Virus record (IMG/VR): IMGVR_UViG_3300036834_000018
Span: 1 to 42,763 of that record
Source of the DNA: a virus
DNA length: 42,763 nucleotides
Reading direction: 5' to 3' (one strand)
This document shows, in pieces, positions 19,879-42,763 of the stretch. The notes below the pieces were generated by a model. That model was not told the DNA's origin. It saw nothing but the letters and a program-made list of their open reading frames with translations, and ran no database searches. Position 1 is the first letter of the stretch, and every line of letters begins with the position of its first letter. Position numbers and translations under genes: made by a program.

Positions 19879-20517
19879 ATGAAAAAATTACAAACGGCAA
19901 AAGAACAAAGAGAAATATTAGCAAATAATCTCAATTCTCTATTGCGTAGTAAAGGGAAAACGCAGGCTGATGTAATTCGTGAGTTGGGCGTAGCTGAGGC
20001 AACAGTGCGTAGTTGGTTTAATGGAGAGAAGTATCCTAGAATTGATAAATTGCAAATGTTGGCAGATTATTTTAACGTTCCGCGATCCAGAATAACCGAA
20101 GAGCAAACTGATGTCTTGCAAAGAGTATCAAGTATAGTGAAAATCCCAATACTAGGAACGATCACTTGTGGCGAACCAATTCTAGCCGAAGAAAACTTTA
20201 ACGGTTATAGAGAAGAAATCGGTGATTTTCTCCCTACTGGAGAATTATTTTTCTTAAAAACAAAAGGCGATAGTATGGTTCCAACAGTGCCTATTGGTAG
20301 CTACGTATTGATCAGAAAACAAGAGAGCGTGGAAGACGGTGAAATTGCCGCTGTTAGAGTAAACGGTGACGAAGAAGCTACTTTGAAACGAATCAAACGT
20401 CAAGGAAACATCGTTATGTTAGTCGCAGATAATAAGGAATATGATCCCTATATAATTACAGAAGATAATCCTGCAACAATCATTGGAAAAGCTGTCAAGA
20501 TAAGTATTGACCTATAA
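19879..20517 (+). CDS. cI: cI-type repressor, Xre HTH plus S24 autopeptidase
   Basis: The 212-residue lysogeny repressor has an N-terminal Xre HTH (residues 14-68) and a C-terminal S24/LexA-like peptidase. The catalytic pair is Ser132 (in TKGDSMVP) and Lys170 (in EATLKR). The predicted self-cleavage bond is Cys98-Gly99 in GTITCGEP. It should be inactivated after RecA activation by DNA damage, releasing the early operon. GAAGGAG precedes the ATG. Confidence 0.94.
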   Translation: MKKLQTAKEQREILANNLNSLLRSKGKTQADVIRELGVAEATVRSWFNGEKYPRIDKLQMLADYFNVPRSRITEEQTDVLQRVSSIVKIPILGTITCGEPILAEENFNGYREEIGDFLPTGELFFLKTKGDSMVPTVPIGSYVLIRKQESVEDGEIAAVRVNGDEEATLKRIKRQGNIVMLVADNKEYDPYIITEDNPATIIGKAVKISIDL

Positions 20518-21745: not shown

Positions 21746-21748
21746 AAA

Positions 21749-21974
21749 TGCCCCTTTTCTGCCCCTTGAAGAAATAAATTGCAATAAAAAAACCGCTAGA
21801 TTGTTTATCTCTAGCGGCTTTTTTTGCGATTTTAATAGAGTTCCAAGTATTGTTGAAATCACATCAGCAACATTGTATATGGTTATATAAAACCTGATAT
21901 ATAAGCTTTTTACTCTTTATTCGAATATTATGTTTATATAACATTTTACAACCCTTGCCCCTTTTATGCCCCTC
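21749..21974. promoter_or_regulatory. candidate attP with paired integrase arm-type repeats
   Basis: TGCCCCTT occurs at 21749 and 21760, and again at 21956 and (with one change) 21967. Each pair has an 11-base period, and the surrounding bases are similar over about 28 positions. The pairs are 207 bases apart and flank an AT-rich segment after the integrase terminator. This is the usual form of arm sites on either side of an attP core. The core itself cannot be fixed from one sequence. Confidence 0.7.
21786..21825 (+). terminator. strong bidirectional terminator after int
   Basis: CCGCTAGA (21793-21800) and TCTAGCGG (21810-21817) are exact arms, with T7 on the plus side and a matching A7 upstream. 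It ends int transcription and shields it from the other side. Confidence 0.9.
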
Positions 21975-22111
21975 GAAAATATTTTCTTTTGATTCTTATA
22001 TTTTTTGTAACCGATTCCTAAAGTGATTGTAAATAGCTATCGATATTTATATGCTATGTAGTTGATTTCTGATACAATGAAGCTATAAAATTAATGAAAA
22101 GAGGAACGTGT
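21975..22111 (+). promoter_or_regulatory. AT-rich stretch with promoter for the SHOCT gene
   Basis: An extended -10, TGATACAAT (22070-22078), lies 33 bases before the gene. No good -35 is seen. The rest is AT-rich with no other signal found. Confidence 0.5.
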
Positions 22112-22747
22112 ATGGGTTTGTTTAGCAGCAAAGCGGATAAAGAAAAGGCCAAGATTGAAAAAGCGAATCGTAAAGCTGAAAACGAAAAAATACTAGAATA
22201 CTTTAAGAAACACAGTGACTACAAAGCTGGCGACATGTATTTCGATGATAAACATGGAAAATTATTTATAAAGAAATCTTTTACCATGAACAGGTCACAA
22301 GCTGTATACAATTACGATGAACTAATCAGCTACACGCCTATTTTTGAAGGTGGGAAAATCAAAAAACATCATGGCATTACACGTGCAATTTTTGGCGGCG
22401 TTTTAGCTGGTCCTGTTGGTGCTGTTGTAGGAGCTGGAACTGGTGGAAAAGAATTTGATACCATTAAGCGCCTAGGCTTCATCCTACACCTTACTGACAA
22501 TCGCTCTCAAAACTATATGCTTATGATTTCAGAATCAAAATCAAATAGTTTCCTTACGAAGTCGGCGATGGAAGATTACAACAACATAGCTGCTAAACTG
22601 GATCAAATAATTTCTTCAAATACTCAAGAACCTACATCCGCTGGTAGCAACGCCGATGAGTTGAGAAAATTCAAAGGCCTTCTTGATGATGGAATTGTTT
22701 CTCAAGCCGAATTTGATGAAAAGAAAAAAGAATTGTTGGGATTATAA
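22112..22747 (+). CDS. SHOCT-domain protein, possible lysogenic-conversion gene
   Basis: The 211-residue protein starts at ATG 22112 behind GAGG. It begins with a short basic helix, continues with a beta-rich domain, then a glycine-rich hydrophobic segment (GVLAGPVGAVVGAGTGG, about residues 98-114) that may insert in a membrane. It ends in a SHOCT motif (LDDGIVSQAEFDEKKKELLG). SHOCT tails mediate protein contacts. Such genes are common next to att sites of Gram-positive prophages. It shares a transcript with the lipoprotein gene 12 bases downstream. Confidence 0.78.
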   Translation: MGLFSSKADKEKAKIEKANRKAENEKILEYFKKHSDYKAGDMYFDDKHGKLFIKKSFTMNRSQAVYNYDELISYTPIFEGGKIKKHHGITRAIFGGVLAGPVGAVVGAGTGGKEFDTIKRLGFILHLTDNRSQNYMLMISESKSNSFLTKSAMEDYNNIAAKLDQIISSNTQEPTSAGSNADELRKFKGLLDDGIVSQAEFDEKKKELLGL

Positions 22748-22759
22748 AAGGAGAACATT

Positions 22760-23245
22760 ATGAAAAAAATCAGTTGGTTACTTTTTGTTGGTATGTTCCT
22801 ATTGGTTGGTTGTTCTAATGAAAAAACTGTAACGAATAGCTCCTCATCTAGTTCTAGTACTGTTGAATCATCTTCTACCGTTGAATCAACGACGCGGACA
22901 ACTACAGAGGAAACTTCGCAAGAAGAATCTAGCACTGTCGAATCAGTTTCATCTACTCAAGCTAGTTCGTCGGAAATTGTTTATGAAGAATCAAGCGCTC
23001 CTCAGCAAAATGCTGCCCCTGCTTACAGTGAACCAAGCTCAGAAGCTGAAGAACAACCACAGAATAGCGTTGCCGTAGTTGATCCTCAAGCAGGGGTTGC
23101 CGAATATACAATCGTTCAAAAAGGCGAAACTCCAGAAATGATTGCTCAAAGAAGTGGTATTTCAGTAGATCTATTCTTTGAATTAAATGGATTCACGCCT
23201 GATTACTATATGCTTTATCCTGGCGATCAAGTCAGGGTTAAATAA
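22760..23245 (+). CDS. LysM-domain lipoprotein
   Basis: The signal peptide ends in the lipobox LVGC (Cys19), so the protein should be lipid-anchored outside the membrane. About 80 residues of Ser/Thr/Glu-rich linker follow, then a C-terminal LysM domain (about 114-161: YTIVQKGETPEMIAQRSGIS ... YPGDQVRVK) that binds peptidoglycan. Prophage lipoproteins can block DNA entry of related phages, as Ltp of phage TP-J34 does, but a cell-wall or adhesion role is also possible. AAAGGAG precedes the ATG, and a terminator follows. Confidence 0.88.
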   Translation: MKKISWLLFVGMFLLVGCSNEKTVTNSSSSSSSTVESSSTVESTTRTTTEETSQEESSTVESVSSTQASSSEIVYEESSAPQQNAAPAYSEPSSEAEEQPQNSVAVVDPQAGVAEYTIVQKGETPEMIAQRSGISVDLFFELNGFTPDYYMLYPGDQVRVK

Positions 23246-23250
23246 ACTAA

Positions 23251-23271
23251 GTCTGCAAAGCAGGCTTTTTT
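23251..23271 (+). terminator. terminator after the lipoprotein gene
   Basis: GTCTGC and GCAGGC (one G-U pair) around AAA are followed by six T on the plus strand. Confidence 0.8.
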
Positions 23272-23288
23272 CTTTACCTTTTGTTCGC

Positions 23289-23317
23289 TTTACAATAAGA
23301 ACAAACGTTCGTATAAT
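23289..23317 (+). promoter_or_regulatory. promoter with LexA-type SOS box
   Basis: TTTACA (23289-23294), a 17-base spacer and TATAAT (23312-23317) form a near-consensus promoter. The spacer carries AGAACAAACGTTCG (23298-23311), which matches the Gram-positive LexA/DinR box CGAAC-N4-GTTCG at nine of ten defined positions. LexA bound there would block RNA polymerase. Confidence 0.8.
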
Positions 23318-23337
23318 TCTTGCAAGGAGTGATTGAC

Positions 23338-23628
23338 ATGCAAATACCACTTGCAGATAAACGGACGTATGCACTAGAAAGATACTATTACGAGTTCATT
23401 CAACGAATGGGACCAGCTCACTTTCTTTATGAGCAGTTTGTACAAACTATGGAAAATTTTGGGAAACCCTACTTTACCGTTCCCTCAAGCTACAGTGGCT
23501 ATCCAGAGGAAATAGCGTTTGTCTTCAAAATCGAAGGCGAAAACTATATTTTTGATCATGTTCGGACTCAAGATAAAATATTGCGTAAGTATGATCCAAG
23601 CATTAATTACAAGCCCGGTGGAAATTAG
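23338..23628 (+). CDS. small protein behind a LexA-type promoter, 96 aa
   Basis: I start at ATG 23338 with AAGGAG upstream. The protein has an N-terminal helical part rich in Tyr and Phe (TYALERYYYEFIQRMGPAHF) and a beta-rich C-terminus with charged loops. No known family. It is the last gene before the lysis module, convergent with the endolysin, and would lie near the right prophage end. The SOS-type box predicts expression upon DNA damage. Confidence 0.75.
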   Translation: MQIPLADKRTYALERYYYEFIQRMGPAHFLYEQFVQTMENFGKPYFTVPSSYSGYPEEIAFVFKIEGENYIFDHVRTQDKILRKYDPSINYKPGGN

Positions 23629-23642
23629 AGCAACAAAAAAAG

Positions 23643-23670
23643 CCCCCTACTCAAACGAGTAAGGGGTATT
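23643..23670. terminator. bidirectional terminator between the SOS gene and the endolysin
   Basis: CCCCCTACTC and GAGTAAGGGG pair around AAAC with one mismatch; an A-run lies on the left and TATTTGTTT on the right. It serves the two convergent genes. Confidence 0.8.
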
Positions 23671-23673
23671 TGT

Positions 23674-24624
23674 TTACCACGGAAGCTTGTTGTTGTTCAA
23701 TGCTACTTGCAGCGCTTTGACCATGTTAGATACAGGGCTGATAATACCGTCTTGTGTTGTACCAAGTGCCTTCTGCATTGCTTTAATTGTATTCTTTCCA
23801 CACAATCCGTCAACTGCACCATTGTAGTACCCATTTGCTTTCAACCCCTTCTGGATAGCACGAATCAAGTCAGATCCGATCAATGTCGTATCGAATTGAG
23901 CCGAATACAAGTTAGCGTTACATGCTTCTTTGTATTGGTGACTTACTTCGCCATCCTTGTAGGTATCGTGATACTCCTGCAGACGTGTGGTTACAGCAGG
24001 TACCCACTTACCATCAACTGATAATGTTGTAAATTGCTCAACAATGTTCGAGGATGTGTTACCAGATAGCAAGTTGTTCACTTTGTTTTGGACTTGCGTC
24101 GGATCGTATCCTGCAGCTTTTAATGCCGCATTACGTTTGTCTCCATTTCCCCACAAGCCATTGATAACTTCTTTAGCAACTGTATCTACTGATTTGCTGC
24201 CAGTTGTTGTGCTTTCAGTAGCTACAATACGGTAGAAATTGTGCGTTAGACGAGTACTCATATATGAATCGTGGCTATCGGTATGAATCCCATTCCAATA
24301 ATACGAACAATGGATAAAGCTGGTATTGCTTAGGAAAATACCTGTGTGACCACCCGAACCGCTCGATTGACCAGGAGTACCGGCAACAAAAATATCTCCA
24401 CGTTTGACTTCCGAGCGGCTGATTTTCTTTAATTTCGTGCCCACCATGCCAAATAATGTTTCAGTATTCCCCATGGAACCGCTAGGTAAGAATCCGCCAG
24501 CGATCATAGAAAAAAACACTGCAGAAGAACAGTCGTAACTTTTAGGACCCAAACGGTTTGTCATCGAATAGGTTACCTTGCCTTCACGGTCGGTCATCCA
24601 TTTGATCATTTTTTCAATGCTCAT
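23674..24624 (-). CDS. endolysin: Amidase_5 (NlpC/P60-like) with CW_7 and C-terminal binding domain
   Basis: The 316-residue enzyme cleaves host peptidoglycan at lysis. Residues 1-135 are an Amidase_5 domain with Cys32 (SYDCSS) and His93 (GGHTG) as catalytic pair. Residues 145-188 form a CW_7 cell-wall-binding repeat (VDTVAKEVINGLWGNGDKRN). The rest (195-316) contains a peptidoglycan-binding-like segment (LIRAIQKGLKANGYYNGAVD). No signal peptide is present, so release needs the holin. It is the last gene of the late operon. Confidence 0.92.
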   Translation of the reverse strand: MSIEKMIKWMTDREGKVTYSMTNRLGPKSYDCSSAVFFSMIAGGFLPSGSMGNTETLFGMVGTKLKKISRSEVKRGDIFVAGTPGQSSGSGGHTGIFLSNTSFIHCSYYWNGIHTDSHDSYMSTRLTHNFYRIVATESTTTGSKSVDTVAKEVINGLWGNGDKRNAALKAAGYDPTQVQNKVNNLLSGNTSSNIVEQFTTLSVDGKWVPAVTTRLQEYHDTYKDGEVSHQYKEACNANLYSAQFDTTLIGSDLIRAIQKGLKANGYYNGAVDGLCGKNTIKAMQKALGTTQDGIISPVSNMVKALQVALNNNKLPW

Positions 24625-41586: not shown

Positions 41587-42763
41587 CTTCTTCAACCTCC
41601 GTATCAGTTTCTTTGTCACCATCAAACACACCAGAACCAGCTTGTTTCTTCAATCGCTTCAGTTCTTCTTCAAACGGAACGCCAGTTAATCGCTCAGCCA
41701 TTTCACACAAAGTTTGATCTGATACGATACCAACCATTCCAGCGATAACGCTCATGATTTCTTCGTCAGATTGCGGCACGTTCGGCGTAAATTGGATTTG
41801 TATCTCGTTTACTTTGTTGTATAACTGCTCTTGCTGTTTTTCATCCGAAACAAAAAAGGCTTTGACTGTATCAATCAAGCCTCGTGGTTTATCCAATCCA
41901 TCCAGTCCATCTTTAATGCTCCAAGAGTGTGTAAGCAGCCGTAGGCGGCGCATGATAGCTTTCTTGACCATCCGCTCCTTGTTCTTGCGATCGTTGTCTG
42001 ATCCCCATCCTTTGAAACGGAATCCGATTCCAGACTGGTTGGACCCAATGTTCTCGTCAGTAAAATCAATAAGAGATGTGAAGCGCAAAATGTCAGCAAC
42101 TGTCCGACTATCGTTAGCTTCCATTCCGGCAACGTCATACTCTTTCTTAAGGTAGTACGCATCAGGTTCGGCGCCTGCAACGTTATTGTCGTATATCTTC
42201 TTATCGCCTAATACAAGCATTCTCGCTTGCATCATAGCTTGGAATACTGCTAATTTGCTGTTGTCGCCTTCTTGGTCGTCTGCTGTATCAGGGTTCCCTT
42301 TAATAACCAAGTAAGCTTCCGATGAATCTTGTTGGAAGTTAGCCATTTCTGAGCGTGAAAGGTCGTATGCATCGATTGAATCAAGCACACGCTCGAAGTC
42401 ACTTAAACGTTCTTCGTTGTTGATCCATTCGTTAACTTGAACCGAATCAAAATAACTTTCAACAATATCCTCATTTGGATCTTCAATTCTTGCATTCTCT
42501 AAATCATCATTTTCTGCTACAAGATAATAATTGAATCCGCTGTTTGTGTATAGCTCAACTCGTGTCCATGACTTATCCAAGAATTCTTCTTTGTAATAGT
42601 GGACACCACATACTGAATTACGATCTTTGGTATTGTCGTAGATAACAAATGTTTGCTCTGCATCAAACTTCGCTAATGTCTCTTTGCCATATTCATCACG
42701 ACCAATCCATTCATATGCTCTACCTAATCCGAACGTATCACGCCCCATTAATTGATTGTGATA
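41540..42763 (-). CDS. portal protein, C-terminal part (starts at base 553 of the window)
   Basis: This is codons 185-549 of the SPP1 gp6-type portal (unique bases 41540-42636; the last 127 bases repeat the window start). It includes the stem and crown region (NIGSNQSGIGFRFKGWGSDN and KKAIMRRLRLLTHSWSIKDG) typical of SPP1-like portals. The acidic C-terminus (DGDKETDTEVEEDESQTTDD) is exposed in related rings. It joins to 1-553 without a frame break. Confidence 0.95.
   Translation of the reverse strand, partial: YHNQLMGRDTFGLGRAYEWIGRDEYGKETLAKFDAEQTFVIYDNTKDRNSVCGVHYYKEEFLDKSWTRVELYTNSGFNYYLVAENDDLENARIEDPNEDIVESYFDSVQVNEWINNEERLSDFERVLDSIDAYDLSRSEMANFQQDSSEAYLVIKGNPDTADDQEGDNSKLAVFQAMMQARMLVLGDKKIYDNNVAGAEPDAYYLKKEYDVAGMEANDSRTVADILRFTSLIDFTDENIGSNQSGIGFRFKGWGSDNDRKNKERMVKKAIMRRLRLLTHSWSIKDGLDGLDKPRGLIDTVKAFFVSDEKQQEQLYNKVNEIQIQFTPNVPQSDEEIMSVIAGMVGIVSDQTLCEMAERLTGVPFEEELKRLKKQAGSGVFDGDKETDTEVEEDESQTTDDERVSEER
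42637..42763. repeat. terminal direct repeat, right copy (circular overlap)
   Basis: Identical to bases 1-127. See the left copy: removing one copy closes the circle. Confidence 0.97.

Follow-up and report, generated by a model that had tools for sequence, protein, structure and literature searches.

A DUF5960 gene behind a LexA-type operator in an enterococcal temperate phage and the linkage of its family to umuC-yolD operons

Introduction

When a small gene of a temperate phage lies behind a LexA-type box, the question arises of which regulator controls it and whether its product serves the induction of the phage or the damage response of the host. Such a gene was analyzed here in a window of 42,763 nt, which is an entire virus record with a 127-bp direct repeat at its ends. 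The encoded protein (96 aa) has a sole match in Pfam, DUF5960 (PF19385), a family without described function, of which it is a member above the curated cut-off. An earlier note on this DNA had proposed control by the LexA-type box and a role as a late-acting helper of induction or a host-takeover factor.

The phage and the surroundings of the gene

The end repeat is exact (positions 1–127 and 42637–42763) and is probably the assembly mark of a circular contig. The phage is temperate and belongs to gut enterococci of the Enterococcus gallinarum/casseliflavus group. This assignment is based on the 99% identity of its DUF5960 protein with a protein of the E. gallinarum phage phiEG37K and on close relatives in enterococcal genomes, namely those of E. 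innesii and E. casseliflavus. The features around the gene are as follows:

19879–20517, plus strand: S24-type prophage repressor gene (PF00717, Peptidase_S24, 94.5 bits; Cys-Gly, GDSM, and ATLKR visible in the sequence)
21746–21784, no strand: attP crossover interval, where sibling homology ends
22094–22747, plus strand: SHOCT-domain gene (PF09851, 31.6 bits; phrog_888), between attP and the LexA unit
22760–23245, plus strand: LysM lipoprotein gene (PF01476, 33.7 bits)
23249–23275, plus strand: terminator of the upstream lipoprotein gene, isolating the LexA unit
23324–23329, plus strand: Shine-Dalgarno sequence AAGGAG, recognized from the sequence and kept in siblings
23338–23628, plus strand: DUF5960 gene with ATG start, 96 aa (PF19385, 37.3 bits against a cut-off of 24.1)
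23643–23666, minus strand: terminator stem between the DUF5960 gene and the convergent endolysin gene
23674–24624, minus strand: endolysin gene, its 3' end facing the DUF5960 gene

The LexA unit (23289–23628) extends from the −35 hexamer through the stop codon. A longer reading frame of 102 aa starting at TTG 23320 was rejected, as the Shine-Dalgarno position and conservation favor ATG 23338.

In one sibling prophage record, homology on the int side extends no further than 21743; in other siblings, after other flanks, the homology resumes at 21784 (loci L005 and L012) or 21785 (L022); therefore, attP lies between these points. The DUF5960 gene was previously said to be next to attP, which is a loose description, since the two are about 1.5 kb apart and the SHOCT and LysM genes intervene. 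The placement ahead of the lysis genes does not hold for transcription, as the endolysin gene is convergent and a terminator separates the two. In the prophage, the gene is located close to one end and apart from the immunity region, because attP and the SHOCT and LysM genes precede it and the endolysin gene points toward it. Cargo genes are often located near a prophage end. In the window phage, the DUF5960 gene stands alone between two terminators, with the LysM lipoprotein and endolysin genes as neighbors, and neither umuC nor yolD was found beside it.

Two further observations concern this region. The LysM lipoprotein shows weak similarity to the superinfection-exclusion family phrog_15667 (E = 0.004) and, judging by this match, is possibly an exclusion protein. 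In a locus of another Enterococcus (L098), compared with 22094–23628 of the window, the next gene after the same SHOCT gene is a DUF5960 member of another subfamily, whose LexA leader resembles that of the window; the cargo gene seems to have been exchanged at one phage site.

Promoter and LexA operator

The control region contains the following elements:

23289–23317, plus strand: sigma-70-type promoter TTTACA-17-TATAAT (11 of 12 consensus matches; hexamers nearly invariant in 21 distinct promoters)
23289–23294, plus strand: −35 hexamer TTTACA of the DUF5960 promoter
23298–23311, plus strand: LexA operator AGAACAAACGTTCG, conserved, occupying the 17-nt spacer; an identical box precedes host umuC, yolD-like, and chromosomal DUF5960 genes
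23312–23317, plus strand: −10 hexamer TATAAT of the DUF5960 promoter

With its score, TTTACA/TATAAT is the top promoter-like site of the region. The perfect motif GAACNNNNGTTC (GAAC-N4-GTTC) occurs once in the window. Sites with at most one mismatch number 15, including the perfect one, against 15.1 expected; thus, the motif alone is not significant, and the case for a real box is founded on conservation rather than on motif count. For the window together with its siblings, conservation was assessed in 28 loci that have upstream DNA and a box adjoining the gene, which gave 21 distinct promoter sequences. Both 4-nt half-sites, GAAC and GTTC, show zero variation across these promoters, and the mean minor-base fraction is 0.29 in the central 4 nt, 0.52 in the two nucleotides preceding the box, and 0.38 in the upstream DNA. 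The earlier description of a box filling the spacer of a near-consensus promoter is thereby borne out. Membership in a LexA regulon calls for an operator of the CGAAC-N4-GTTCG type that overlaps the promoter and is kept among relatives, and both features are present here.

In siblings with a two-gene operon that has an extra first gene, the box precedes that gene (−383/−384; L006, L011, L014, L029, and L039–L041). The 106-aa product of this first gene of the LexA operon (L006:1740-2069, MKYNDFKNLLENRL...) had no match in Pfam, NCBIfam, or PADLOC. A second DUF5960 subfamily with perfect or one-mismatch LexA boxes was found in 124 viral stretches, of which 80 were kept (L202–L281); in part of these loci, an additional small gene (MEEFIRK...) comes first, and the box lies at −271/−274. 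In one DUF5960 relative (L067), the box has decayed within an otherwise similar promoter (TTTACAAAACAATTTAACGTTCATATAAT), and this gene has possibly been freed from LexA.

Evidence for control by the host LexA

The lack of LexA in the host had been named as an observation that would speak against this control. The lexA gene is present in the genomes of all three species examined from the host group, and its promoter in the host group carries CGAACATTTGTTTG, a one-mismatch version of the box; the recA promoter likewise has a one-mismatch box, CGAATGTTTGTTCG. In E. casseliflavus, the same −35/box/−10 design precedes umuC (the product has 464 aa and IMS domains), the yolD-like gene, the chromosomal DUF5960 gene, and the prophage DUF5960 gene; among the 15 examined of 25 perfect sites in E. 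casseliflavus, the design is limited to these four. In the E. innesii GAL7 assembly (L194; G003:C8:513962), the lexA frame is broken after about 60 residues and the promoter box is intact; the break is either a real mutation or a sequencing error.

Since the box precedes host umuC, yolD-like, and DUF5960 genes, and in mismatched form lexA and recA, it was assigned to the host LexA. From the conserved operator and the host lexA with the same operator type, control of the DUF5960 gene by host LexA is almost certain, in line with the earlier note.

It is very improbable that the box is instead an operator of the phage's own repressor. The C-terminal half of this repressor is LexA-like (TIGR00498, 88.8 bits, below the cut-off of that model), which would suit such a reading, but its N-terminus is HTH_3 and not the LexA DNA-binding domain, a second perfect copy of the motif is absent from the window, including the cI region, and the motif stands before the host genes listed above.

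The DUF5960 family and its genomic contexts

Searches with the DUF5960 protein in PHROGs, NCBIfam, and PADLOC gave no match, including none of the anti-phage defence models of PADLOC. Homology to YolD or UmuD was not detected (Pfam; no solved relative), and a profile search of solved structures returned nothing usable. The AlphaFold model is of moderate quality (pLDDT 72), and a fold search with it against PDB and viral models gave no match with E ≤ 0.001; the best viral fold match (E = 0.03 over 47 residues) was left unused. No paper naming DUF5960 was found in the literature searched.

In a survey, DUF5960 was present in 50 of 105 genomes from the family of the host and in 62 of 247 from its order. 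Genomic contexts were counted as distinct proteins in loci from part of the matches, after three rows had been moved by hand to a far clade. The SOS branch, in Lactobacillales, comprises 88 such proteins: umuC lies immediately upstream in 34 of them, a LexA box precedes 43 of the remainder, and 11 show neither feature. Thus, 77 of 88 members either occupy the third position of a umuC-yolD-DUF5960 operon or have their own LexA box, with about 1% expected by chance; in control windows of 400 nt, a strict LexA box occurs in 0.9%. Some of the 11 remaining members are start-site miscalls. In the far clade (24 proteins), neither umuC upstream nor a LexA box was found (0/24 each).

The gene order umuC-yolD-DUF5960 is observed in streptococci and enterococci. 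Where these operons could be read far enough upstream (n = 16), a perfect box precedes umuC in nine cases and a one-mismatch box in four more. In the tree, the far clade is split off (support 99/99), and the phage protein nests among chromosomal LexA-boxed copies of the same host group (99/95); the number of columns is small for the number of rows, and the deep forks are unsure. Because the phage protein groups with these chromosomal copies, a host SOS gene is the most likely ancestor of the phage gene.

Close relatives of the gene were found in 39 viral loci. This high prophage frequency, together with the 124 contig stretches carrying the other subfamily, would suit a different SOS function, such as counter-defence or an inhibition of DNA-end processing in the host, by which the phage or rival elements would be protected. 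This reading is unlikely, as the database searches returned no match that would point to it and the chromosomal copies in umuC operons need no such role.

As for an antirepressor or induction helper that inactivates the phage repressor after LexA loss, LexA control and a site outside the immunity region are hallmarks of that class, shared with Tum of phage 186, AntC of N15, and GfoA of Gifsy (PMC3121763, PMC4551915). An antirepressor of this kind would be expected beside a cognate repressor that is not RecA-cleavable; Gifsy repressors are uncleaved, whereas the repressor of the window phage is, by its sequence, of the S24 type with active-site motifs, which agrees with its earlier description as a RecA-sensitive S24 repressor as far as the S24 assignment goes. 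Since a Cys-Gly site and the Ser/Lys residues can be seen in its sequence, it should need no antirepressor. The homologues of the DUF5960 gene are host SOS genes located on chromosomes within umuC-yolD operons, and the gene itself lies at the opposite prophage end, behind its own terminators. An antirepressor is accordingly rated as quite improbable, and a role in lysis is likewise disfavored. The roles proposed by the earlier note, a late induction helper or a host-takeover factor, are unsupported on the same kind of evidence: the nearest non-phage homologues are host chromosomal genes that share the LexA promoter, and umuC-yolD operons are where the family is found in bacteria. LexA control and the S24 repressor thus stand from that interpretation, while its proposed roles and the position before the lysis genes do not.

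Operon partners in siblings and hosts

In most sibling phages, the DUF5960 gene is followed by a gene for an 88-aa "QYEQGYL" protein and then by one for a "SKIRVLK" protein of about 95 aa. In E. casseliflavus (L051), the same pair stands behind a yolD-like gene that has a LexA box, and a diverged pair stands behind umuC-yolD-DUF5960 in another Enterococcus (L173); SKIRVLK-like genes also lie downstream of LexA-boxed DUF5960 genes in L081, L085, L151, and L157. The weak model of the SKIRVLK protein (pLDDT 64) has the order beta-beta-beta-alpha-beta-beta, and its fold matches are rich in OB-fold proteins, all with E ≥ 0.019 and none significant. Based on the strand order and this list of matches, an OB fold is predicted. 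In one chromosomal operon (L172), the gene after DUF5960 looks, by eye, like a SRAP gene (MCGRYLF start).

The two downstream genes of the sibling phages are missing in the window phage, so that its LexA-driven gene could be the nonfunctional remnant of a phage operon that was once longer. Such a remnant is quite doubtful, since the frame, start site, and operator are all intact and relatives of this DUF5960 type retain 77–99% identity in differing phage surroundings.

Small genes under strict LexA control whose function is unknown frequently encode checkpoint factors, which would agree with an SOS-controlled toxin or cell-division inhibitor of the SulA/YneA kind, acting to arrest the damaged cell. 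Inspection of the DUF5960 protein by eye revealed no membrane or secretion signal, and the coupling to umuC-yolD and to an OB-fold-like gene fits DNA transactions better, which leaves a toxin or inhibitor improbable.

Discussion

The sequence data establish the promoter and operator with their conservation, the presence of LexA in the host, and the association of the family with umuC and yolD. On this basis, the reading that we favor, with moderate confidence, is that the prophage carries as cargo a gene under LexA control whose product is an accessory of the host UmuC/YolD-type translesion system, the role being deduced from gene neighborhoods. In the lysogen, LexA would occupy the promoter spacer and block RNA polymerase. 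DNA damage would activate RecA and lead to self-cleavage of LexA, and the 96-aa protein would then be made regardless of the state of the phage repressor. It would most likely work together with the host UmuC-type Y-family polymerase and its small subunit of the YolD type, adding a further accessory to damage tolerance or mutagenesis. As an outcome, the damaged lysogen may survive or mutate more, or the induced phage may be copied across lesions. The prophage thus probably supplies a spare part for the host damage response and not a trigger of its own escape. Membership in one operon indicates a shared pathway and is not proof of a physical complex.

YolD is the small subunit of the YqjW/UvrX mutasomes, and DUF5960 is unnamed in the description of these systems (PMC12926913). 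The UmuC/UvrX-YolD operons (YqjW-YqjX/YolD-RecA mutasomes, PMC12926913) share LexA control with the window gene and have DUF5960 as the third gene in streptococci and enterococci; they differ in that the window gene is alone, without polymerase or YolD, and its product has no YolD homology. Another comparison is HumD of phage P1, a UmuD'-like homologue of UmuD (McLenigan 1999, as cited in PMC4713147). HumD is likewise a phage-borne orphan, and DUF5960 would similarly aid the host error-prone polymerase, whereas it is an unrelated small protein and not a UmuD homologue.

A phage gene under LexA control is of an already known kind. What is new, relative to the literature searched, is DUF5960 as an SOS-linked family that is coupled to umuC-yolD and widespread in enterococcal prophages. 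SOS control and the coupling to umuC-yolD across streptococci and enterococci provide a first functional lead for this unannotated family, and the data suggest that many enterococcal prophages carry SOS-mutagenesis cargo. Levofloxacin induces SOS genes and prophages in E. faecalis (PMC5930301); therefore, prophage SOS cargo could alter the mutation rates of lysogens under antibiotics. More tentatively, DUF5960 may be an undescribed component of Gram-positive translesion mutasomes, beside UmuC, YolD, and RecA, and enterococcal prophages may spread LexA-controlled cassettes, often with an OB-fold partner, that would retune host mutability during antibiotic-induced SOS.
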